Assembly (NCBI RefSeq): GCF_003236295.1
Contig: NZ_POTW01000069.1
Coordinates: forward strand, 1 to 36,126
Direction: 5' to 3'
Length of the DNA: 36,126 nucleotides
Origin: Jiangella anatolica
GTDB lineage: Bacteria > Actinomycetota > Actinomycetes > Jiangellales > Jiangellaceae
A program made the position numbers and the translations under genes. Positions 13,757-35,465 of the stretch are shown piece after piece. The notes beneath the pieces are model-generated. The model was not told the origin of the DNA. It did not search any database and saw only the letters and a program-made list of their open reading frames with translations. Numbering within the stretch: the first letter of the stretch is position 1; the number at the start of each line of letters is the position of its first letter.

Positions 13757-13827
13757 CCCCATGATCATCAATGATCCAACCACCCAGAGGGGGTTGGATC
13801 ATTGATGATCAACGGAACTGGGGTCAG
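13753..13827. terminator. Long inverted repeat spanning both convergent stop codons
   Basis: Inner arms at 13762-13781 and 13792-13811 are a perfect 20-bp inverted repeat around a 10-base loop. Outer arms at 13753-13761 and 13819-13827 (CTGACCCCA / TGGGGTCAG) add nine more pairs, separated from the inner arms only by a 7-base bulge on one side. The outer arms contain the stop codons of both flanking genes (TGA 13754-13756 on plus; TCA 13824-13826, read TGA on minus). The inner arms are strikingly AT-rich for this genome. A bidirectional terminator is the simplest reading. Confidence 0.8.
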
Positions 13828-16052
13828 TGCTCCAGCTGGGGCAGCTTGTGCAGCGGCTTGGGCAGCCACCAGTTCCGCTCACCCAGCAGCGCCATGATCG
13901 ACGGCAGCAGCACGGCCCGGACGATGGTCGCGTCGATGAGGATCGCCGCGGCCAGGCCCACGCCCATCTGCTTGAAGTCGATCGCGCCGAGCGTCGCGAA
14001 GATCGAGAACACAGCGACCATGACCACGGCGGCGCTGGTGACGACGCCGGCCGAGCGGATGATGCCGCTGCGCACCGCCTCGGGCGTCGACATGCCCGCC
14101 TTCGCGCCCTCGCGGATCCGGCTGACGACGAACACGTGGTAGTCCATCGACAGGCCGAACAGGATCACGAAGAGGAACAGCGGCAGCCAGGTGATGATCG
14201 CGCCGGTGGACTCGAAGCCGAGCAGCCCCTCGGCCCAGCTGTTCTGGAAGACCAGCGTCAGCAGCCCGTAGGAGGCGGCGACGGAGAGCAGGTTCAGGCC
14301 CGCGGCGGTCAGCGCCACCGCCAGCGACCGGAACGCCATCACCAGCACGACGATGGTCATGAGCAGGACGAACCCGATGACGATCGGCATCCGGTCGGCC
14401 AGCAGGTCGCGGAAGTCGACGTTGCCCGCGGTCATGCCGGTGACGCCGCTCTCGACGCCGTCGATGCCGCCGAACGCCGCCGGGACGAGGTCGTCGCGCA
14501 GGGCCTGCAGCGAGTCCTCGGCGCGGTCGTCGTCGTGCTCGTACGGAACGGGGACGGTGATCTCGGCGACCGAGCCATCGGTCGAGTACTCGGCGACCAG
14601 GCCGTCCTCGGCCGCGAACTCCGGGTCGGTCGCGACCGCGTCGTTCAGCTGTGCGATGCCGGCATCGACCGCCGCGGTGTCCAGCGGCGAGCCGTCGGTC
14701 GTCCAGACGGCGACGTCGTGCGCGGCGCCCTCGGACGGGAACGCCGTCGTGATGGCGTCGTAGGTCTGCACCTCGGGCACGTCCTTGGACAGGTCGGAGA
14801 TGCCGGGCTGCGAGAGCTTCATGCCGAGCGCCGGCGCGGCCAGCGCCAGCAGCGCCAGCAGTCCCGCGACCAGCGCCGTCTTCGGGTGCCGCAGCACCGG
14901 GCCGAGGATGGCCCGCCACACGCGCGGCTCGCCGCCGTCACGCTTGCGCAGCCGCCACAGCAGCGGGATGCGCGGCCGGTCGATCCAGCGGCCGAAGATC
15001 GACAGCAGCGCCGGCAGCGCCGTCACGGACCCGACGACGGCCACCGCGACGACCAGGATGGTGCCGACGGCCAGCGACTGGAAGGTCGCCTCACCGGCGA
15101 AGAACATGCCGGCCATCGCGATGATGACGGCGAGTCCGGAGACCACGACGGCCCGGCCGGACGTGGCGGCGGCGACCGCGACGGCGTCCATCGTGCCGCG
15201 GCCCTTCTCCCGCTCCTCGCGCTCGCGGCGGACGTAGAACAGCGAGTAGTCGACGCCGACGGCCATGCCGACCAGCAGCACGACCGAGGCGAGGATGTCG
15301 GTGGACGGCACGATGTACGACGCGAACGCCGACAGCCCCATGGCCGCGATCACCGACGACAACGCCAGCAGCACCGGCACCGCGGCGGCGATCAGCGCGC
15401 CGAACACGACCAGCATGATGAGCAGGCTGACCGGCAGCGACAGGTACTCGGCGCGCTGCAGGTCGTCCTCATAGACCTGACTCAGCGCCTCGTCCAGCGA
15501 CGCGTCGCCGACCTGGCCCACGTTCAGGCTGCTGTCGGCGCCGTCTACGACCTGGCCGATCTCGGCGGCCGCCGCCGCGGCGGCGTCCTCCTCCTCGGCG
15601 TCGGTGCCCTCCGGGACGTCGAGCGTCACCTCGTAGAGCACGGCGGCGCCGTCCTCGGACACCTGCGGGTCGGCCACCCCGGTGACGCCCGGCGCGGCGG
15701 CCAGGTTCGCCGTCAGCGTCGTCACCGCGTCGGAGTCGACGTCGACCGTGCCACCGTCGGCGCCCCGGACCAGCACGGACTCGGTGTAGGGATCGTCGAA
15801 GTCGGCTTGGATGAGCGCCTTGTCGGCGCCGGCGGAGGCGCCGACGCCGCTGTCGCCGTCCTCGACCTCCTTCGTGCCGACGGCACCGCCGCCGACGATC
15901 GCGGCGGCGACGAACGCCAGCCAGAGGATCAGTGCCAGCCACTTGTGCGTCGCGCTCCAGCGGGCGACGCGCACCACCAGGCCGCGGCGGGGCGGCGGTG
16001 GGAGCGGCGGAGTCGGTAGGGGCGGTCGGTCCAGGGGAAGTGTGGTGGTCAT
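13824..16052 (-). CDS. MMPL/RND-family transporter (copy 1)
   Basis: This is a 742-residue inner-membrane exporter of the MMPL family, proton-driven pumps moving lipids or small molecules. A Pro-rich cytoplasmic start (residues about 8-22) precedes membrane segment 1 (WLALILWLAFVAAAIVGGG). An external loop follows, then a five-helix block with the family motif GMAVGVDYSLFYVRREREE, a cytoplasmic segment, and a second half with the same architecture ending in FGLSMDYHVFVVSRIREG and a final helical hairpin. Both halves are complete. The ATG at 16052 has GGGAC upstream. It stands alone with no linked TetR; its promoter region holds repeats described separately. Confidence 0.94.
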   Translation of the reverse strand: MTTTLPLDRPPLPTPPLPPPPRRGLVVRVARWSATHKWLALILWLAFVAAAIVGGGAVGTKEVEDGDSGVGASAGADKALIQADFDDPYTESVLVRGADGGTVDVDSDAVTTLTANLAAAPGVTGVADPQVSEDGAAVLYEVTLDVPEGTDAEEEDAAAAAAAEIGQVVDGADSSLNVGQVGDASLDEALSQVYEDDLQRAEYLSLPVSLLIMLVVFGALIAAAVPVLLALSSVIAAMGLSAFASYIVPSTDILASVVLLVGMAVGVDYSLFYVRREREEREKGRGTMDAVAVAAATSGRAVVVSGLAVIIAMAGMFFAGEATFQSLAVGTILVVAVAVVGSVTALPALLSIFGRWIDRPRIPLLWRLRKRDGGEPRVWRAILGPVLRHPKTALVAGLLALLALAAPALGMKLSQPGISDLSKDVPEVQTYDAITTAFPSEGAAHDVAVWTTDGSPLDTAAVDAGIAQLNDAVATDPEFAAEDGLVAEYSTDGSVAEITVPVPYEHDDDRAEDSLQALRDDLVPAAFGGIDGVESGVTGMTAGNVDFRDLLADRMPIVIGFVLLMTIVVLVMAFRSLAVALTAAGLNLLSVAASYGLLTLVFQNSWAEGLLGFESTGAIITWLPLFLFVILFGLSMDYHVFVVSRIREGAKAGMSTPEAVRSGIIRSAGVVTSAAVVMVAVFSIFATLGAIDFKQMGVGLAAAILIDATIVRAVLLPSIMALLGERNWWLPKPLHKLPQLEH

Positions 16053-16183: not shown

Positions 16184-17299
16184 TCAGGCCTTGAGCTCGA
16201 CCGTCTGCACTTCACTGGCCTGCACGAACGCCTCGTCGACGGTATGACCCAGGCCAGGCGCCGTCGGGACGTCGACGATGCCGGCGGAAGCGGTGATGGG
16301 CGGGTAGACGACGTCGCGTTGGTAGTACTTGTCCGACGCCGACACGTCGGAGGGGAGGGTGAAGCCGGGCAGGCTGGACAGTGCGATGTTGGCGGCCCGG
16401 CCGACGCCGAACTCGTGCATGCCGCCGCACCAGACGGGGATGTCGTGCTCGGCGGCGAGGTCGTGCGCCGCCACCGCCGGGCCGAGCCCGCCCAGCCGCG
16501 AGACCTTGATGTTGAGCACCTTCAGCGCGCCGAGCACGACCGCCGTGCGCAGGTCGTCCAGCGTCTCGATCGACTCGTCCAGGCACACCGGCGTCGAGAG
16601 GTCGCGCTGCAACGCGGCGTGCGCGAGCAGGTTCCGCGGGCCGAACGGCTGCTCGATCATCGTCAGCCCGAACTCGTCCAGCCCCCGCAGCGCCACCAGC
16701 TCGTCGGGCGTCTCGCCGTAGGCGCCGTTCGCGTCGACGTGCAGCATCAACTCCGGGAAGGACGAACGCACCGCCCGTACCGGCTCGACGTCCCAGCCGG
16801 GGGCGATCTTCAGCTTCACCCGCGGGTACCCGGCGTCGACGTGCTTGGCGACCTCGGCCAGCAGCGCGTCCACCGTCGGCTCGATCCCCAGCGAGACGCC
16901 GGCGACGACCGACGGCCGGGTGCCGCCGAGCGCCGTCGCCAGCGACACGCCGCCGGACAGCGACCACAGCGTCCACGCCGCGATGTCGACGCCGGCCTTC
17001 GCGAACTGGTGGCCGCGGACCTTCGCCCACAGCCCGGCGACCTCCGCCGGGTCGTCCCAGCGTGCGCCGACCACCGCCGGCAGCAGGTACCGCGACGCCA
17101 CCAGCCAGCAGGTGTCCACCGTCTCCGGCGAGTAGAACGGGTCCGACGCCGAGGCGATCTCACCCCAGCCGACGGCGCCGGACTCGTCGGTCAGCCGGAC
17201 GAGGATGTGGTCCAGGTGGTCCTTGGCGTGCGAGCTGGTGCGGAACCGGTGCACCAGCGGCAGCCGGACCTGGTGCAGCGACGCATGGGTGACGCGCAC
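16184..17299 (-). CDS. Enolase-superfamily N-acyl/N-succinylamino acid racemase (MenC-like)
   Basis: This 371-residue enzyme belongs to the o-succinylbenzoate synthase / N-acylamino acid racemase branch of the enolase superfamily. The capping domain (about 1-130) is followed by a barrel with the full catalytic set: general base pair K162/K164 (KLKI), metal ligands D189 (HVDANGAY), E216 (IEQPF) and D241 (LDES), and the opposite base K265 (NIKVSRLGG). No menaquinone genes are nearby. Instead it is co-transcribed with a SIS protein and a GNAT transferase, and a divergent M20 hydrolase lies next to them. That context favours racemisation of N-acylated amino acids over o-succinylbenzoate synthesis, although many members do both. 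The GTG start at 17299 is two bases after the upstream stop. Confidence 0.9.
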   Translation of the reverse strand: MRVTHASLHQVRLPLVHRFRTSSHAKDHLDHILVRLTDESGAVGWGEIASASDPFYSPETVDTCWLVASRYLLPAVVGARWDDPAEVAGLWAKVRGHQFAKAGVDIAAWTLWSLSGGVSLATALGGTRPSVVAGVSLGIEPTVDALLAEVAKHVDAGYPRVKLKIAPGWDVEPVRAVRSSFPELMLHVDANGAYGETPDELVALRGLDEFGLTMIEQPFGPRNLLAHAALQRDLSTPVCLDESIETLDDLRTAVVLGALKVLNIKVSRLGGLGPAVAAHDLAAEHDIPVWCGGMHEFGVGRAANIALSSLPGFTLPSDVSASDKYYQRDVVYPPITASAGIVDVPTAPGLGHTVDEAFVQASEVQTVELKA

Positions 17300-17301
17300 G
17301 G

Positions 17302-17934
17302 TCAGTCCTCCCAGTAGAGGTCGAGGTCGTGGGCGAGCCGGTCGCGCTCGGCCAGCCGGCGGCGGGCGCCCTTCGCGCTCGCCGTTGTGAGGGTGGCGAG
17401 CAGGTGGACGACGGCGGCGACGGCGGTCGGCGAGTCGGCGAACGAGGCGCTCGCCGTCGGCACCACGATCGTCTGCCCGGCGACCTCGGCCAGCGGCGAC
17501 GACGCGGTGTCGGTGACGGCGACGACGGCGCCGCCCGCGGCCGCGAACCGCCCGGCCAGCGCGACGGTCTCGCGACGGTACCGGCGCAGCGAGATCGCCA
17601 CCAGCACGTCGGTGTCGCGGACGTCGGCCAGCACGTCGACGTGGCGGACCAGGGTGCCGTCGACCAGCGTGACGTTGGACAGCCCGGCGGACAGGTCGAC
17701 GGCCAGCAGCGAGGCGTAGGCGAACGACTTGCCGGTGCCGGCGACGAACCGGCGCCGGGCCGCGACCACCGTCGCCGCCGCGGCCGCCACCGACCCGTCG
17801 GCCGCGACCCGCTCGAACGCCTCGGCCAGCGTCCGCGTCTCCCGCTCGATCACCCGCGCCTGCAGCGCGGCCGCCGACGACGGGCGCTGCAGCCGGGCGC
17901 CGAACCGCTGCGACGGGCTGGTCAGCTCGGTCAC
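17302..17934 (-). CDS. RpiR/MurR-type SIS-domain protein lacking the N-terminal HTH
   Basis: This 210-residue protein consists almost entirely of the sugar-isomerase (SIS) sensor domain of RpiR/MurR regulators: FVAGTGKSFAYASLLAVDLSAG, DTDVLVAISLRRYRRETVAL, and AVVAVTDTASSPLAEVA. Ordinary RpiR regulators are about 280 residues with a winged HTH in the first 75; here only about 30 residues and a linker-like helix precede the SIS fold. The GTG start at 17934 overlaps the GNAT stop, and the frame upstream is occupied by the GNAT gene, so the HTH cannot be recovered there. It may act as a ligand sensor or binding protein without DNA binding, or be a diverged regulator remnant. Its place between transferase and racemase links it to the acylamino-acid pathway. 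Confidence 0.82.
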   Translation of the reverse strand: MTELTSPSQRFGARLQRPSSAAALQARVIERETRTLAEAFERVAADGSVAAAAATVVAARRRFVAGTGKSFAYASLLAVDLSAGLSNVTLVDGTLVRHVDVLADVRDTDVLVAISLRRYRRETVALAGRFAAAGGAVVAVTDTASSPLAEVAGQTIVVPTASASFADSPTAVAAVVHLLATLTTASAKGARRRLAERDRLAHDLDLYWED

Positions 17935-18665
17935 GGCGCGGCCCGGACGAAGCGGTAGGCGGCGGTCTCCGCCGACACCAGGACGCACGACGTCGCCACG
18001 GCCCCGCCCTCCAGCAGGACGCCGATGGCGGCGCCGAGCTCGCGCCGCCGGCGGTCGTCGGCCGACACCGGCAGCGGCAGCCAGGTGTCCGGACCGGCCG
18101 GACGGGGCCGCAGCCAGCCGGCCGGGTCGGCGAGGTCGTCCGGCAGCGCCGCCGGCGCCGGCGCGTCGCGGGCCCGGCGCTCGTCGTCGAGGTCCCAGTC
18201 GACGATCATCCGGTCGGTGCCGGGCAGCCCGAAGAAGTCCGGCCGGAACCAGCGCCCGGCCGCGCCCAGCACGTCGAGGTTGAAGTGCGCGTTGCGGACC
18301 ACGGCCGGGTCGAACGACCAGCGCATCCGGGTCTGCCCGCCGGCCAGCGCGACCTCGCGCTGTCCCCGTTTCAGCGCCCGCCCGAGCCCCTGCCCCTGAT
18401 GCCCGGCGGCGACGACCGCGGCCTGCGAGTAGTGGTAGATCTCGCCGCCGTCCAGGCCGACGAAGCCGTACGCGAACGCGATCAGCTCGCCGTCGTCGCC
18501 GCGGACGCCGACGACCGAGCCGCCGTTGGCCGCCAGCGAGGCGAGCAGGCGCGGGTTCACCGAGTGTGACGGGTCCTCGTAGCCGAAGACCTCGCGGTAG
18601 AGCCGCGCGGCGCCGGCGAGATCGGCAGCAGCTGTGAGCCGCTCGACATACGGTTCGTAACTCAT
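17931..18665 (-). CDS. GNAT-family N-acyltransferase (COG3375-like)
   Basis: This 244-residue cytoplasmic acyl-CoA-dependent transferase has the GNAT core at about residues 5-160, with the pyrophosphate-binding loop HQGQGLGRALKRGQ. The diagnostic segment RMRWSFDPAVVRNAHFNLDVLGA is typical of the COG3375 group rather than ribosomal or drug acetyltransferases. In Geobacillus, members of this group sit beside N-succinylamino acid racemase and act as succinyl-CoA:D-amino acid N-succinyltransferases. The same pairing here supports N-acylation (probably succinylation) of a D-amino acid as its job; donor and substrate are inferred. First gene of the minus-strand operon, followed with a GTGA overlap by the SIS gene. 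Confidence 0.86.
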   Translation of the reverse strand: MSYEPYVERLTAAADLAGAARLYREVFGYEDPSHSVNPRLLASLAANGGSVVGVRGDDGELIAFAYGFVGLDGGEIYHYSQAAVVAAGHQGQGLGRALKRGQREVALAGGQTRMRWSFDPAVVRNAHFNLDVLGAAGRWFRPDFFGLPGTDRMIVDWDLDDERRARDAPAPAALPDDLADPAGWLRPRPAGPDTWLPLPVSADDRRRRELGAAIGVLLEGGAVATSCVLVSAETAAYRFVRAAP

Positions 18666-18700
18666 CAGCTGTCCACCCTACTCACGGCTACGCGACAAGG

Positions 18701-18716
18701 ATACGGCACGTATAGT
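18701..18716 (+). promoter_or_regulatory. -10 box with overlapping palindrome upstream of the M20 hydrolase
   Basis: TATAGT at 18711-18716 ends six bases before the ATG at 18723, so transcription should begin at the start codon (leaderless mRNA). ATACG-GCA-CGTAT at 18701-18713 is a perfect 5-bp-arm palindrome overlapping the -10 box, well placed for a repressor controlling this gene and perhaps the divergent GNAT operon. Confidence 0.6.
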
Positions 18717-18722
18717 GGCGAG

Positions 18723-19835
18723 ATGAACGGTTCCGACGCGCTACTGGACCGGCTGGAGCGCTACGTTCGGCACGAGACGCCGACCGGCGACGCCGCCCGG
18801 CTGGACGCGCTCGGCGAGGTCCTGCTGGCGCGGCACCGCGAGCTCGGGGCGGCGGTCCGCCGGGTCGCGGCGGCGGGCGGCGACCACCTGGTCATGGAGC
18901 ACCCGGGCCGCGGCGCGAAGGCCGGCGCGGCGCCGGTGCTGTTCCTCGGCCACCACGACACCGTGTGGCCGGTCGGCCAGCTGGACGGGCCGATGCCGTG
19001 GCGGGTCGAGGACGGCGTCGCGCACGGGCCGGGCGTCTACGACATGCGCGGCGGCCTGGTCGTCATGGAGGCCGCGCTGGAGCTGGCCCGCGCCGCCGAT
19101 CGCCGCCCGGTGCGCGTCGTCGTCGTGGCGGACGAGGAGGTCGGTTCGCCGACGGCGTCCGCGCTGGTCGCCGACGCCGCCCGGGACGCCGTCGCCGCGC
19201 TCGGGTTCGAGTCGCCGCACCCGGACGGCGCGCTGAAGTCCGGCCGGCGCGGCAGCACCCGGCTGCGGCTGGCCGTCGAGGGGGTCGAGGCGCACGCCGC
19301 GCTCGACGCCGACGCCGGCGTCTCCGCGGTCGACGAGCTGGTCGACCAGCTGCTGCTGGTCCGCTCGATCGTCCGGCACGCCCCCGGCGACGTGCTGTGC
19401 AACGTCGGCACGCTGACCGGCGGCGGCCGGACGAACGTCGTACCGGCGGCCGCGCACGCCGACCTCGGGCTGCGCTTCACCGACGCCGAGTCCGAGCGGA
19501 TCGTGCTGGACGGGCTGACGTCGCTGCGGCCGATCCGCGCCGGCGCGACGGTGACCGCCGAGGTGATGTCGCGGCGGCCGACGTGGGCGCCGGACGAGGC
19601 GACCGCCGCCCTGCTCGACACCGTCCGCCAGGCGGCGCGCGGCGTCGGCCAGCGGATCGACGGCGCACCGGCCGCCGGCGGCGCCGACACCAATACCACC
19701 GGCTCGCTCGGCGTCCCGACGCTGGACGGCTTCGGCCCGCGCGGCGCCGGAGCGCACGCCGTCCACGAACAGGTCGTCGTCGCGTCGCTGGCCGAGCGGG
19801 CCGAGCTGGTCGCGGCCGTGCTCGCGGAGCTCTAA
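18723..19835 (+). CDS. M20-family metallopeptidase (N-acyl-amino acid hydrolase candidate)
   Basis: This is a 370-residue two-zinc hydrolase of the M20/ArgE/CPG2 family. Metal and catalytic residues are in place: H and D of FLGHHDTVW (about 76-80), D of YDMRGGLVVME (about 107), the catalytic/ligand pair EE in VVADEEVGSP (about 137-138), and a late His in GAHAVHEQV. The lid domain lies at about 175-290. It is divergent from the GNAT/SIS/racemase operon across only 57 bases. In the known D- to L-amino-acid pathway the last step is removal of the succinyl group from the N-succinyl-L-amino acid by an M20 desuccinylase, and this gene fits that step. Without the context it would be called only a generic carboxypeptidase G2-like peptidase. 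Confidence 0.88.
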   Translation: MNGSDALLDRLERYVRHETPTGDAARLDALGEVLLARHRELGAAVRRVAAAGGDHLVMEHPGRGAKAGAAPVLFLGHHDTVWPVGQLDGPMPWRVEDGVAHGPGVYDMRGGLVVMEAALELARAADRRPVRVVVVADEEVGSPTASALVADAARDAVAALGFESPHPDGALKSGRRGSTRLRLAVEGVEAHAALDADAGVSAVDELVDQLLLVRSIVRHAPGDVLCNVGTLTGGGRTNVVPAAAHADLGLRFTDAESERIVLDGLTSLRPIRAGATVTAEVMSRRPTWAPDEATAALLDTVRQAARGVGQRIDGAPAAGGADTNTTGSLGVPTLDGFGPRGAGAHAVHEQVVVASLAERAELVAAVLAEL

Positions 19836-20425: not shown

Positions 20426-22603
20426 GTGGCAACCCTGCTGTACCGGATCGGCCGGTTCTCCTACCGCAGCCGCCGCCTGGTGGGTGCCGTGTGGCTGACG
20501 GTGATCGTGCTGGCCGGCGTGGCCGCGGCGACGCTGTCCAGCCCGACGTCGGACTCGTTCGCGATCCCCGGCACCGAGTCACAGGAGGCGTTCGACCTGC
20601 TGGAGGAGCGGTTCCCCGGCTCGTCGCCGGACGGTGCGGCGGCGCGGCTGGTGTTCGCCGCGCCCGACGGCGAGAGCGTCACCGATCCTGAGCACCGGGC
20701 GGCGATCGAGGCGGCCGTCGGCGAGATCGAGGCCGGCCCGCAGGTCGCCGAGATCGTCGACCCGTTCGCCGCCGGCCTGGTGTCCGAGGACGGCCGGATC
20801 GCGCTGGCCGAGGTCACCTACGGCGTCGACTTCCTCTCGCTGGAGGCGCAGACGCGCGAGACGCTCGACGACGCGGTCGAGACGGCCGGCGAGTCGGGGC
20901 TGCGGGTCGAGCTGGCCGGCACCGCGGCGGAGCCGGAGCCGGAGCTCGGCAGCGAGCTGCTCGGCATCGCCGTCGCCGCGCTGGTGCTGGTCCTGACGTT
21001 CGGCTCGCTGCTCGCGGCCGGCATGCCGCTGCTCACCGGCGTCGTGGGCGTGGGCGTCGGCGTCGCGCTGGTCACCGCGGCCACGTCGTTCGTCGACCTC
21101 AGCACGATCACACCGATCCTCGCGACCATGCTCGGGCTGGCCGTCGGCATCGACTACGCGCTGTTCATCGCCTCGCGGTACCGGCACGAGCTGGCCGCGG
21201 GCCGGCCCGGCGACGACGCGGCGGGGCGGGCCATCGGCACCGCCGGCACCGCGGTCGTGTTCGCCGGGCTCACGGTCGTCATCGCGCTGGCCGGGCTGTC
21301 CGTCGTCGGCATCCCGATGCTGACGGAGATGGGCCTGGCCGCCGCGCTCACGGTCGCGATCGCCGTCGTCATCGCGCTGACGCTGCTGCCGGCGCTGTTC
21401 GGCTTCGCCGGCCGGCGGATGCTGTCCCGGCGGGCCCGGGCCGCCGAGACCCGCCCGGACGACGCTCCCACCATGAGCCGCCGCTGGGCCGGCCTGGTCA
21501 CCCGGCGCCCGGTCGTCGCGCTGACGGCGAGCGTCGCGGGGCTCGCGGTGCTCGCGCTGCCGGTGCTGGACGCCCGCTTCGGCCTGCCCGACGAGGGCAC
21601 CTATCCAGCGGACACGACGCAGCGGCAGGCCTACGACCTCACCGCCGAGGGGTTCGGGCCGGGCTTCAACGGGCCGCTGCTGGTGCTCGTCGACGGCGAC
21701 GGCACCGAGGCGGCGGCCGGCGAGGTCGCGGCCGGACTGCAGGACCTCGACGGCATCGCGATGGTCGCGCCGCCGGAGGTGGATGCGGCCAACGAGACCG
21801 CCGTCATCACCGTCGTGCCGGAGAGCGGGCCGTCGGACGCGGCCACCGAGCGGCTGGTCGAGACGATCCGCGCCGAGCTGGCCGGCCCGAACGCGCCGGC
21901 CGGGTCGGCCGTCCTGGTGACCGGGCTGACCGCGCTCTACATCGACTTCTCCGAGCGCATGTCGCAGGCGCTGCTGCCGTACCTGCTGGTCGTCGTCGGC
22001 CTGTCGTTCGTGCTGCTGATGCTGGCGTTCCGGTCGCTGGTCGTGCCGCTGAAGGCGACGCTGGGCTTCCTGCTGACGATGGCGGCGACGTTCGGCGCCA
22101 TGGTCGCGGCGTTCCAGTGGGGCTGGCTGACCGGCCTGGGCGTCGACGAGGTCGGCATGATCAACAGCATGCTGCCGATCATCGTCGTCGGCATCGTGTT
22201 CGGGCTGGCCATGGACTACGAGGTGTTCCTGGTGACGCGGATGCGCGAGGCGTACGTGCACGGCGAGGCGCCGCTGGACGCCGTCACGACGGGGTTCGCG
22301 CACGGCGCCCGGGTGGTCACCGCGGCGGCGATCATCATGATCAGCGTGTTCGGCGGGTTCGTGCTCAACGAGGCCGCCGACATCCGGCAGATGGGCTTCG
22401 CGCTCGCCGTCGCGATCGCCGTCGACGCGTTCGTGGTGCGCATGACGATGGTGCCGGCGGTGCTGGCGCTGGTCGGCGGCCGGGCGTGGTGGCTGCCGCG
22501 GTGGCTGGACCGGCTGCTACCGGACGTCGACATCGAGGGCGCCCGGCTCACCGACACGCTGGCGGAGCGAGACCGCCAGCAGGTCGGCGTCAGCGGCCCC
22601 TGA
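20426..22603 (+). CDS. MMPL/RND-family transporter (copy 2, YdfJ-like)
   Basis: This 725-residue integral-membrane exporter has the MMPL double architecture. Membrane segment 1 is at about 18-40; the first helical block contains LGLAVGIDYALFIASRYRHEL, and the second contains FGLAMDYEVFLVTRMREAY. The C-terminus is basic and hydrophilic. The GTG start at 20426 has CGGAGG five bases upstream and gives the usual short basic N-terminus. It differs from the MMPL at 13824-16052 in its N-terminus (no Pro-rich tail) and in motif spellings, so the two are not a recent duplicate. The substrate is unknown. Confidence 0.94.
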   Translation: MATLLYRIGRFSYRSRRLVGAVWLTVIVLAGVAAATLSSPTSDSFAIPGTESQEAFDLLEERFPGSSPDGAAARLVFAAPDGESVTDPEHRAAIEAAVGEIEAGPQVAEIVDPFAAGLVSEDGRIALAEVTYGVDFLSLEAQTRETLDDAVETAGESGLRVELAGTAAEPEPELGSELLGIAVAALVLVLTFGSLLAAGMPLLTGVVGVGVGVALVTAATSFVDLSTITPILATMLGLAVGIDYALFIASRYRHELAAGRPGDDAAGRAIGTAGTAVVFAGLTVVIALAGLSVVGIPMLTEMGLAAALTVAIAVVIALTLLPALFGFAGRRMLSRRARAAETRPDDAPTMSRRWAGLVTRRPVVALTASVAGLAVLALPVLDARFGLPDEGTYPADTTQRQAYDLTAEGFGPGFNGPLLVLVDGDGTEAAAGEVAAGLQDLDGIAMVAPPEVDAANETAVITVVPESGPSDAATERLVETIRAELAGPNAPAGSAVLVTGLTALYIDFSERMSQALLPYLLVVVGLSFVLLMLAFRSLVVPLKATLGFLLTMAATFGAMVAAFQWGWLTGLGVDEVGMINSMLPIIVVGIVFGLAMDYEVFLVTRMREAYVHGEAPLDAVTTGFAHGARVVTAAAIIMISVFGGFVLNEAADIRQMGFALAVAIAVDAFVVRMTMVPAVLALVGGRAWWLPRWLDRLLPDVDIEGARLTDTLAERDRQQVGVSGP

Positions 22604-33589: not shown

Positions 33590-34543
33590 ATGCAGTGGGG
33601 GGCCGCTACACCGCCGGACGCGCCACCGCCGCCGGCTGACCTTCGGACGTACCGCGACGCGTTGCTGAGCGCGTGGAGCAGCGTCCGCATCGACGACGGC
33701 CAGCGGCGGCACTCGCGCGGCGCCGTCTACGCCGGCGGATCGCTGGTCACCGAGTCGCTGCGGGCCGGCGGCTACGGCGGCGACCACGTCACGCCGGCCG
33801 ACCCGCCGTATTGCGACGAGCCGGCGGCGGACCGGCTGCGCGGCCGCTGGCTCTACGGCGGGCACTGGATGGTCCGGTTCGGCCACTTCGTCACCGAGAC
33901 GCTGACCACCCTGTGGCCGGTCGGGCAGGAGGTGGACGGGCTGGTCTTCCACCGCTTCATCTGGCCCACCGAGCTGCTCGACTACCACCTCGACCTGGTC
34001 CGGCGCAGCGGCTGGGACGTACCGATCCGGGTCGCGGCGCGGACGACGCGGGTCGACGAGCTGGTCGTCCCGGACCGGCCGTACCACCCGGGCCGGCGCA
34101 CCAGCGCCGAGTCGGTCGCGGTGTGGGACCGCGTCGCCGTCGCCGCGCCGCCCGGTCCGCCGGTGTTCCTGTCCCGTTCCCGGCTGCCGAAGGACCGGCG
34201 CCGCAGCGAGGGCGACGAGCTGCTGGACGGGGAGCTGGAGCGGCTGGGCTTCCTCGTGCTGCACCCCCAGGAGCTGCCGATCGCCGAGCAGCTGGCCGCG
34301 GTCGCCGCGGCGCCGATCCTCGCCGGTCTCGCCGGATCGGCGCTGCACCTGTCCGCGTTCGCGCCGCGTGACACCCGGGTGCTGGAGATCGGCGACACCC
34401 GCAACCGCACCTGGCCCCTGGCCAACCAGCGGGTGATCGACGCCGCCCGCGGCCGGCTGACGGCGTTCGTCCCGCACCTCGGCCACGACGCCGTCCGCGA
34501 CGTCGGCGCCACCGTGGCCGCCGTCGCCGCACTCCTCGACTAG
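33590..34543 (+). CDS. Glycosyltransferase family 61-like (DUF563)
   Basis: This is a 317-residue soluble protein. The central GGHWMVRFGHFVTETLTTLWPV matches the conserved HxxxET helix of GT61/DUF563 transferases. FLSRSRLPKDRR corresponds to their YVSRxxxxRR strand, and GLAGSALHLSAFAPRDTRVLEIG to their G-x-x-G-A-x-x-N/L donor loop. The family moves sugars onto glycans or proteins; donor and acceptor cannot be read here. TACTCT (33578-33583) ends six bases before the ATG, predicting a leaderless message and independent transcription from the phosphatase. Its TAG stop and the stop of the convergent kinase share one palindromic CTAG (34540-34543). Confidence 0.83.
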   Translation: MQWGAATPPDAPPPPADLRTYRDALLSAWSSVRIDDGQRRHSRGAVYAGGSLVTESLRAGGYGGDHVTPADPPYCDEPAADRLRGRWLYGGHWMVRFGHFVTETLTTLWPVGQEVDGLVFHRFIWPTELLDYHLDLVRRSGWDVPIRVAARTTRVDELVVPDRPYHPGRRTSAESVAVWDRVAVAAPPGPPVFLSRSRLPKDRRRSEGDELLDGELERLGFLVLHPQELPIAEQLAAVAAAPILAGLAGSALHLSAFAPRDTRVLEIGDTRNRTWPLANQRVIDAARGRLTAFVPHLGHDAVRDVGATVAAVAALLD

Positions 34544-35190
34544 GCCAGCTCCGCCACGACGTCCGCCGCCTCGTCGAGACCGGCGACGTCCAGCCGCCAG
34601 CCGCGGGCGCCGCGGGCCAGCGCCGTCGCTGCGGTCCACGCGTCGGCGCCGAGCCGGTAGTGGTTGAACCCGGCCCGCAGCACCTGGGCGAGCACCTCGC
34701 CGGCCGGCCGCGGCGTCAGCCGGGTCCGCGCCGCGCCGCGCCGCAGCTCGACGACCTGGGCGACCGGCACCGTCGCGGCGACGGTGGCGGCGCCGAGACG
34801 CTCGGGCGGCACCGCCGCCTTCTCCTCCGCGCCGAGCGGACCCACGTCCAGGCCGACCGCGCCGAGCGCCCACGACGTGAGCATCAGCGGCCGCGCCCAC
34901 CCGGTCACGTGGCCGGTGTCCGGCTCGACGGCGACCAGCTCGTCGCTCAGGTAGCCGAAGCCGCGGCGCAGGCACGCGGCCACCATCGTGCTCTTGCCGG
35001 TGCCGGACTCCCCCGGGAACAGGACGGCCCGGCCGTCGCGCGCGACGGCGCCGGTGTGCAGCAGCAGCCGGGGCGCGCGCTCGATCGCGACGGCCGCCGC
35101 GGCGGCGTACAGGTCCTCGGCCGGCACGTCCTCGCCGGAGGGCACCTCGACCCGGACGCCGACGACGTCCAGCACGAGCCGGCCGGTCAT
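34540..35190 (-). CDS. HPr-kinase/phosphorylase-like (HprK-related) kinase
   Basis: This 216-residue protein has the P-loop kinase core of HprK: LLLHTGAVARDGRAVLFPGESGTGKST (P-loop at about 60-68, seen after the LHTGAV strand), then LRRGFGYLSDELVAVEP with the acidic SDE at about 82-84. The N-terminal HprK domain is absent, as in the stand-alone kinases of lasso-peptide and other RiPP loci (ThcoK/PadeK group), which phosphorylate a serine or C-terminus of a small peptide. Its start overlaps the stop of a PqqD-like gene (ATGA), a pairing typical of peptide-modification loci. No precursor peptide or lasso cyclase is visible inside the window. Confidence 0.85.
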   Translation of the reverse strand: MTGRLVLDVVGVRVEVPSGEDVPAEDLYAAAAAVAIERAPRLLLHTGAVARDGRAVLFPGESGTGKSTMVAACLRRGFGYLSDELVAVEPDTGHVTGWARPLMLTSWALGAVGLDVGPLGAEEKAAVPPERLGAATVAATVPVAQVVELRRGAARTRLTPRPAGEVLAQVLRAGFNHYRLGADAWTAATALARGARGWRLDVAGLDEAADVVAELA

Positions 35191-35465
35191 CCGGACGGCG
35201 GCCGGTCGACCACGTGGTGCGCGACGAGCTCGTCCAGGGCGGCCTCGACGCCGGCCCGGACATCGTCGTCGGACGCGCCGTAGGAGCTGGCCAGCAGCCG
35301 GACGATCTCGTCGACGGTGCGTTCGCCGTCGACCAGGCGCCAGACGTCGCCGGCGGTCTCGTTGAGGACGAGCGCGGTGTGGGTGGGCTCGTGGAAGAGC
35401 GTGACCTCGCCGTCGATGTCCATCTCGCGTACGGCGGCCGCGGGCGCCGGCGCTGATCGGCTCAC
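35187..35465 (-). CDS. PqqD-like RiPP-recognition-element protein
   Basis: This is a 92-residue protein with the winged-helix fold of PqqD. After an Ala/Pro lead (about 14 residues) come strands in TLFHEPTHTALVLN, the conserved ETAGDVWRLVDGERTVDEIVRLL helix pair, and a C-terminal helix ending LDELVAHHVVDRPP. PqqD proteins bind leader peptides and hand them to modifying enzymes. The GTG at 35465 is chosen because TACGAT (35478-35473) ends seven bases before it, with CGGACA 16 bases farther out. An in-frame ATG at 35474 would lie inside that -10 box. First gene of a two-gene operon with the HprK-like kinase. Confidence 0.85.
   Translation of the reverse strand: MSRSAPAPAAAVREMDIDGEVTLFHEPTHTALVLNETAGDVWRLVDGERTVDEIVRLLASSYGASDDDVRAGVEAALDELVAHHVVDRPPSG

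Follow-up and report, generated by a model that had tools for sequence, protein, structure and literature searches.

The stretch of DNA described here (the window) is contig NZ_POTW01000069.1 of Jiangella anatolica, 36,126 nucleotides long and contig 222 of a 7.0-Mb Jiangella genome; our subject is a group of four genes within it that probably encodes a route from D- to L-amino acids. The positions and order given for these genes in a preliminary description of the window were confirmed. On the reverse strand, a gene for a GNAT acyltransferase (17931-18665) is followed by one for an SIS-domain protein (17302-17934) and by one for a racemase of the enolase superfamily (16184-17299); on the forward strand, an M20 metallohydrolase gene (18723-19835) diverges from the GNAT gene across a gap of 57 bases. 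The GTG start of the SIS gene overlaps the GNAT stop codon (GTGA), with an alternative, longer frame from 17988, and two bases separate the SIS gene from the racemase gene; the three therefore form one coupled operon, into which the SIS gene is built, as the preliminary description had proposed. Its grouping of three enzyme classes at one place was likewise borne out by Pfam matches, i.e., MR_MLE N- and C-terminal domains in the racemase, Peptidase_M20 plus M20_dimer in the hydrolase, and a weak Acetyltransf_1 match in the GNAT (22 bits against a cut-off of 20.7), alongside the SIS domain. A terminator scan gave nothing useful.

The arrangement is conserved. Within the order, represented in the search by one family of 22 genomes, this four-gene layout was found in 13 of the 21 other genomes (the remaining 11 of the genus plus the two of group g2) and was absent from eight, two of which are 75% and 81% complete. 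A set of 80 loci was then assembled by selecting on the SIS gene: 74 contained the racemase (67 within 2.5 kb), 73 the GNAT (66 within 2.5 kb) and 72 the M20 gene (62 within 3.5 kb). This survey of neighbourhoods, which the preliminary description had suggested, rejects the idea that homologues show no conserved linkage. For the converse test, racemase and SIS searches were run over the same 296 genomes of the class. In 16 of them a racemase reached 58% identity or more, and all 16 had an SIS match; the next racemases, at 50% identity or less, were spread over 85 genomes, with an SIS match in one (G037, SIS at 35%). Three genomes (G095, G215 and G037) had an SIS match but no racemase of at least 58% identity. 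Named SIS relatives at 90% identity or more were all from Jiangella.

A conventional version of the trio lies elsewhere in the same genome. This set, module A (G000:C223:46-3918; L093, L034), consists of racemase, GNAT and M20 genes without an SIS gene, their products being 47%, 34% and 41% identical to those of the window; it is followed by a beta-lactamase-like gene (Pfam) and, by eye, by genes of peptidase and of peptide ABC type; a D-aminoacylase-like gene also lies close by. The window thus holds the unusual copy. The genome encodes yet another racemase of this subfamily, the third, at 46% identity (G000:C191:37388-38431; L094 8332-9453); its gene adjoins another M20 gene and, by eye, an amidase-like gene.

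The promoter between the M20 and GNAT genes carries the palindrome ATACGNNNCGTAT. The palindrome covers the M20 promoter, as the preliminary description had it: the copy on that side (ATACGGCACGTAT, 18701-18713) overlaps a -10-like TATAGT (18711-18716), and 6 nt separate the end of this element from the ATG. At the GNAT start, in the first GNAT codons as called, there is another copy, with a single mismatch (ATACGGTTCGTAA, 18648-18660). A sigma-70 scan found no hexamer pair at this promoter. Within the window alone the pattern at two mismatches is at chance level (4 found, 3.8 expected); the weight of the palindrome comes from its conservation across loci. When the best match was taken from each of 62 divergent M20/GNAT regions, 20 were exact, 32 had one mismatch, nine had two and one had three; i.e., 52 had one mismatch or fewer, against 0.52 expected from dinucleotide shuffles (0.06 exact and 0.46 with one mismatch). 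Counted by group, such a site occurred in 17 of 21, the exceptions being Gordonia, Nocardiopsis, Pseudoclavibacter and Zimmermannella. Each of the 12 genomes of the genus had an exact site at the module and one to three sites overall, and a reversed control pattern gave none except for one site in one genome. Eight genomes of other genera had one to four sites each (with W at the ends) against 0-2 for the control; seven of them had a site at the module, and the eighth had one there with one mismatch. Over all 20 genomes searched, the frequency was therefore one to four per genome.

Taken over whole loci at one mismatch or fewer, the palindrome was found in 72 of the 80 SIS loci (1.51 Mb in total, up to 20.6 kb each), in none of 19 loci of the module A or third-racemase type (103 kb, with some overlap) and in two of 42 other racemase loci (165 kb); since these loci differ in length, the count at divergent promoters is the fairer measure. 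Six SIS loci have no racemase, and four of these (L134, L138, L189 and L197) have a site at a promoter adjoining the SIS operon, the remaining two (L142 and L151) having it only at two mismatches. In three further SIS loci, one site was upstream of a peptide-transport operon (L086), and none was found at one mismatch or fewer in L087 and L088. The palindrome thus tends to accompany the SIS gene, with exceptions, and its position over the -10-like element of the M20 gene suggests repression.

The best match to the racemase in the PDB was 1sja, the N-acylamino acid racemase of Amycolatopsis (E = 6e-88). In 1sja numbering, K163, D189, E214, D239, K263 and R266 are present in the window's enzyme, as the preliminary description had claimed for the catalytic residues, and in all 76 rows of the clade, which comprise the readable racemases from 72 of the 80 SIS loci together with those of the window, L092, L095 and L088. 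We take K163 and K263 to be the catalytic lysines, and D189, E214 and D239 the metal ligands, of racemases of the N-succinylamino acid racemase and o-succinylbenzoate synthase type; R266 is presumably the position tied to racemase activity. Beyond these shared residues the window's enzyme differs from 1sja by F23S, G24H, I293H, T295F and R322K, and the clade shares these changes: Ser23, His24, His293 and Lys322 occur in 76 of 76 rows and Phe295 in 75. The F23-G24 pair of the 20s loop and the aliphatic residue at 293, typical of 1sja and 2ggg, have thereby been replaced. Among 13 module A paralogues of the family, Phe23 and Gly24 were found in 12 (there was one gap) and Leu293 in all. His24 and His293 occurred together in one of the remaining 27 rows from the phylum search, L056, which is identical to L088, and the contig of L088 has an SIS gene 9 kb away. 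At class loci outside the clade (14 tried, five usable; seven yielded no row, and L226 and L231 lacked catalytic residues and were probably read in the wrong frame) both histidines were absent in all five. In a quick tree, 77 rows (the clade plus L056) were split off by a branch of 0.36, with a Shimodaira-Hasegawa-like approximate likelihood ratio (SH-aLRT) support of 99. The window's racemase belongs to a separate clade with invariant changes, which looks like a new subclass. We take positions 23 and 24 to be active-site positions. An engineered crystal form, 5fjp, differs at positions 291, 293 and 323, and G291D/F323Y is a known racemase variant (PMC7431475), so that position 293 is probably at the active site as well. 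Given these changes, enzymes of this clade need not act on the same substrates as known N-succinylamino acid racemases.

The racemase also scored above the cut-off of the NCBIfam model for o-succinylbenzoate synthase, TIGR01928 (291.7 bits; cut-off 200.65), as would be expected if its function were to make that intermediate for menaquinone. However, a separate canonical MenC is encoded elsewhere in the genome (426.5 bits against a curated cut-off of 288), and menaquinone should therefore not need the window's enzyme. The linkage to GNAT, M20 and SIS genes also argues against such a role. We give it almost no credence, and an exclusive synthase activity, which the preliminary description had allowed for, becomes unlikely.

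A sequence search of the PDB with the GNAT gave nothing below E = 0.1, and NCBIfam gave no match, but the closest folds to its model (predicted local distance difference test score, pLDDT, 93.4) were GNATs (E = 3e-8). We infer its substrate solely from the neighbouring genes, and regard it, in substrate and donor alike, as a presumed D-amino acid N-acyltransferase. Its membership of COG3375, given in the preliminary description, is likewise putative. The best PDB match of the M20 enzyme was carboxypeptidase G2 (1cg2, E = 1e-26). The numbering of that enzyme was anchored on H112, and the positions and roles of its two-metal ligands and catalytic Glu are those that we assume. On this basis the equivalents of H112, D141, E175, E176, E200 and H385 are conserved in the window's M20 and in 33 of 33 relatives, and so are those of N275, R288, R324 and H229, whereas K208 and S210 are replaced in the window's enzyme. 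The enzyme, carboxypeptidase-G2-like in sequence, is presumed to be an N-acyl-L-amino acid deacylase. The M20 of module A has a His aligned with R324.

The SIS protein (210 amino acids) had been described as an RpiR-type sensor, and its fold upholds half of that description. The ten best fold matches of its AlphaFold2 model were all chains of RpiR-family regulators (3sho first, then NanR, RccR and MurR), indicating an SIS domain of the regulator type, and in a profile search the best match was the SIS domain of the RpiR protein 3sho (E = 1.7e-16), with an RYxRxT loop common to both. The N-terminal helix-turn-helix (HTH) of those regulators was, by contrast, undetected: Pfam found only the SIS domain, with no HTH model at E values up to 5 (although HMMER filters drop most matches above 0.1) and no N-terminal HTH_6 of the kind that marks RpiR proteins, and in our reading of the model the long helices leave no room for an HTH domain before the SIS domain. 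The protein is therefore not a complete RpiR regulator, and it seems to have lost its DNA-binding part. It does have a conserved basic N-terminal arm and a C-terminal AKGARRR helix. In two SIS proteins, L191 9770-10606 and L088 14752-15774, a long extension precedes the SIS domain and looks, by eye, like the remnant of an RpiR HTH; Pfam has no entry in either extension.

A protein of this kind might instead be an enzyme, i.e., an isomerase or deglycase. The undetected HTH would fit this, as would the profile search, in which the second and third matches (1vim, a hypothetical SIS protein, and a hexulose-phosphate synthase/isomerase) outrank MurR; SIS enzymes, FrlB among them, are found among the matches to the model, too. 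Against it, RpiR-family regulators account for the top ten fold matches and for the top profile match, and the palindrome occurs at four of the six SIS loci that have no racemase; we consider an enzyme unlikely.

A DNA-binding partner of the SIS protein was sought at other copies of the palindrome and among neighbouring genes. Nine exact palindromes lie outside the module in the genus, of which seven share one centre; the three that were read (in G000, G005 and G006) adjoin an ArsR-family gene. In the window's own genome this site (G000:C201:90271-90283; L118 8272) is the same 13-bp palindrome, placed between the ArsR-family gene and, by eye, a flavin monooxygenase-like gene. The ArsR-family protein is an unlikely partner, its site occurring in seven of the 12 genomes of the genus against 12 of 12 for the module site. 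One of the other two sites falls within an ATP-synthase-type gene (G007); around the last, in G012, no regulator was recognised. The eight genomes of other genera held 11 sites outside the module; the nine inspected had no common regulator, two being beside a TetR-like gene and one beside a PucR-like gene, by eye. As the reversed control gives 0-2 sites per genome, these sites are near background. Clustering of neighbours at 78 loci yielded no widely shared DNA-binding family, the nearest candidate being a response-regulator group at nine loci of three genera (by eye). This leaves three possibilities: a new mode of DNA binding by the SIS protein itself, joint action of that protein with a partner whose gene lies elsewhere, or control by an unlinked regulator without it. 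A more specific proposal, which we offer tentatively and on balance doubt, is that this HTH-less, RpiR-derived protein is the dedicated regulator of the operon and reads the ATACGNNNCGTAT operator, be it through an unprecedented contact (e.g., by the N-terminal arm and the AKGARRR helix) or via a partner, and that the racemase is a new specificity class with a pair of new histidines in or close to the pocket, plausibly for an acidic substrate (e.g., peptidoglycan-derived N-acyl-D-glutamate).

The neighbours of the module in relatives bear on the source of its substrate. Over the 80 loci we counted D-aminoacylase-like genes at 33, beta-lactamase-like genes at 34, an antiporter-like carrier at 26, S66 at 29, M19 at 29 and DppB at 28, with Pfam support on representatives; early contig ends may hide some. 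Two layouts predominate. In the first (Kribbella, Saccharopolyspora, Pseudonocardia, Actinomadura and Haloactinopolyspora), the module is accompanied by the carrier (PF03553), a D-aminoacylase-like amidohydrolase or both, with a beta-lactamase-like gene too in the last two genera. In the second (Microbacterium and Gordonia), it is accompanied by a peptide-binding protein, DppB/C/DF, an S66 LD-carboxypeptidase, a beta-lactamase-like protein and an M19 dipeptidase; Agrococcus has M19, with S66 also in two of three loci, and no DppB. At L088 a D-aminopeptidase of family M55 lies beside the racemase. The neighbours in relatives (peptide importers, S66 and M19, or a carrier and a D-aminoacylase-like gene, with M55 at L088) lend indirect support to cell-wall peptides as the source, and the salvage from peptidoglycan suggested in the preliminary description gains to that extent.

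The first layout could be read differently, with the module handling imported N-acyl-D-amino acids or natural products with D residues (including opened beta-lactam-like compounds) and the GNAT only recapturing free D-amino acid. The numbers of D-aminoacylase-like, beta-lactamase-like and carrier genes would agree with this, but the second layout, with its Dpp importers, LD-carboxypeptidase and dipeptidase, points to muropeptides, and we find the imported-substrate idea distinctly unlikely. Less probable still is catabolism of an oxidised amino sugar, as in the ong cluster for GlcNAc1A. There an RpiR-family regulator (MurR/RpiR), a D-aminoacylase-like deacetylase and transporters occur together (PMC9537276 and PMC12017989), and the carrier found here has a weak GntP-type match. 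However, inspection by eye of neighbour groups from at least three genera revealed no sugar kinase, no RidA and no D-amino acid deaminase; at 47 of the 80 loci no D-aminoacylase-like gene was seen in the DNA examined; and racemase, GNAT and M20 would be left unexplained.

Microbacterium and relatives also have class IV aminotransferase and class I glutamine amidotransferase genes adjoining the racemase and M19 genes (L157 11801-12724 and 13832-14545), the aminotransferase being found at 19 loci of seven genera. A D-amino acid transaminase was considered and set aside, the one member tested scoring best as aminodeoxychorismate lyase (253.1 bits, under the cut-off of 273). In the window itself, MMPL transporter genes about 32% identical to each other flank the module on both sides (13824-16052 and 20426-22603), an arrangement kept in L095 and L092. 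Farther away, glycosyltransferase-like, HPr-kinase-like and PqqD-like genes follow one another at 33662-35423 (by eye), like a cassette for peptide or polysaccharide tailoring.

The operon is real and conserved, and its type of pathway is known; its racemase represents a new subclass, and its two regulatory elements, SIS protein and palindrome, form a puzzling pair. We propose, with a probability of roughly 0.7, that it encodes an inducible pathway in which a D-amino acid is converted to its L form and the conversion is committed by hydrolysis. The GNAT would N-acylate the D-amino acid, or a ready-made acyl form would be taken up; the racemase would interconvert the N-acyl-D and N-acyl-L forms via a metal-bound enolate, using K163 and K263; and the M20 enzyme would hydrolyse the N-acyl-L form, making the flow one-way. 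Genes, residues and fold are observed, as are the conserved linkage and palindrome; we infer each reaction, the acyl group and the substrate. The D-amino acid would most probably come from peptidoglycan peptides. Control would be exerted via the palindrome at the divergent promoter, presumably with the -10 element covered when the pathway is off, and the SIS protein would be the likely sensor of a putative ligand.

Several points weigh against this proposal. The racemase carries an o-succinylbenzoate synthase label, and at positions 23, 24 and 293 it differs from 1sja and 2ggg, the two characterised racemases used for comparison; its substrate may, given these residues, be something else. The counts from the SIS-alignment scan cover 80 of the 115 relatives found, the other 35 being outside them. 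In the converse test up to 10 SIS candidates per genome were scored, and 12 of the 16 genomes came from one genus, which reduces the independent cases to four genera. The carrier was found in one of the 12 genomes of the window's genus, and D-aminoacylase-like genes, although present in all 12, adjoin the module only in G010. Finally, no peptidoglycan gene is adjacent to the module in this window, so that the proposed source of the substrate rests on relatives.

Were the proposal true, many Actinobacteria would own a pathway dedicated to turning D-amino acids of the cell wall irreversibly into their L forms, including a racemase class for which no assay was found in the literature searched. 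A conserved operator travelling with an HTH-less SIS protein would also raise the question of how a truncated regulator finds, or helps to find, its DNA. Among the titles listed in a literature search leaving out most subscription papers, none dealt with this gene cluster.

Three known systems invite comparison. With the ong cluster for GlcNAc1A, the loci described here share an RpiR-family gene, a D-aminoacylase-like gene and carriers, whereas the eight genes listed for that cluster in PMC9537276 include no racemase, GNAT or M20. The DgcN-DgcA route for D-glutamate (PMC10845958), like the pathway proposed here, leads from D to L by way of an N-acylated compound, with a racemase of the enolase superfamily; the nature of that compound is taken from the NCBIfam name N-acetyl-D-Glu racemase. 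The window's racemase scored 86.6 bits against that DgcA model (NF042940), whose cut-off is 400. In the N-succinylamino acid racemase pathway of Geobacillus, attributed to Sakai and colleagues (2006), a COG3375 GNAT and an M20 enzyme are reportedly encoded with the racemase. The racemase subfamily and, as we reconstruct it, the GNAT and M20 deacylase acting in series are shared with that pathway, so that the assignment to the Geobacillus type made in the preliminary description is supported as regards enzyme classes and linkage; it does not extend to the racemase clade with its changed residues, and the conventional module is the other locus, G000:C223, a version without SIS gene and palindrome. 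To the Geobacillus scheme the window adds the SIS protein, the palindrome and the altered racemase residues.

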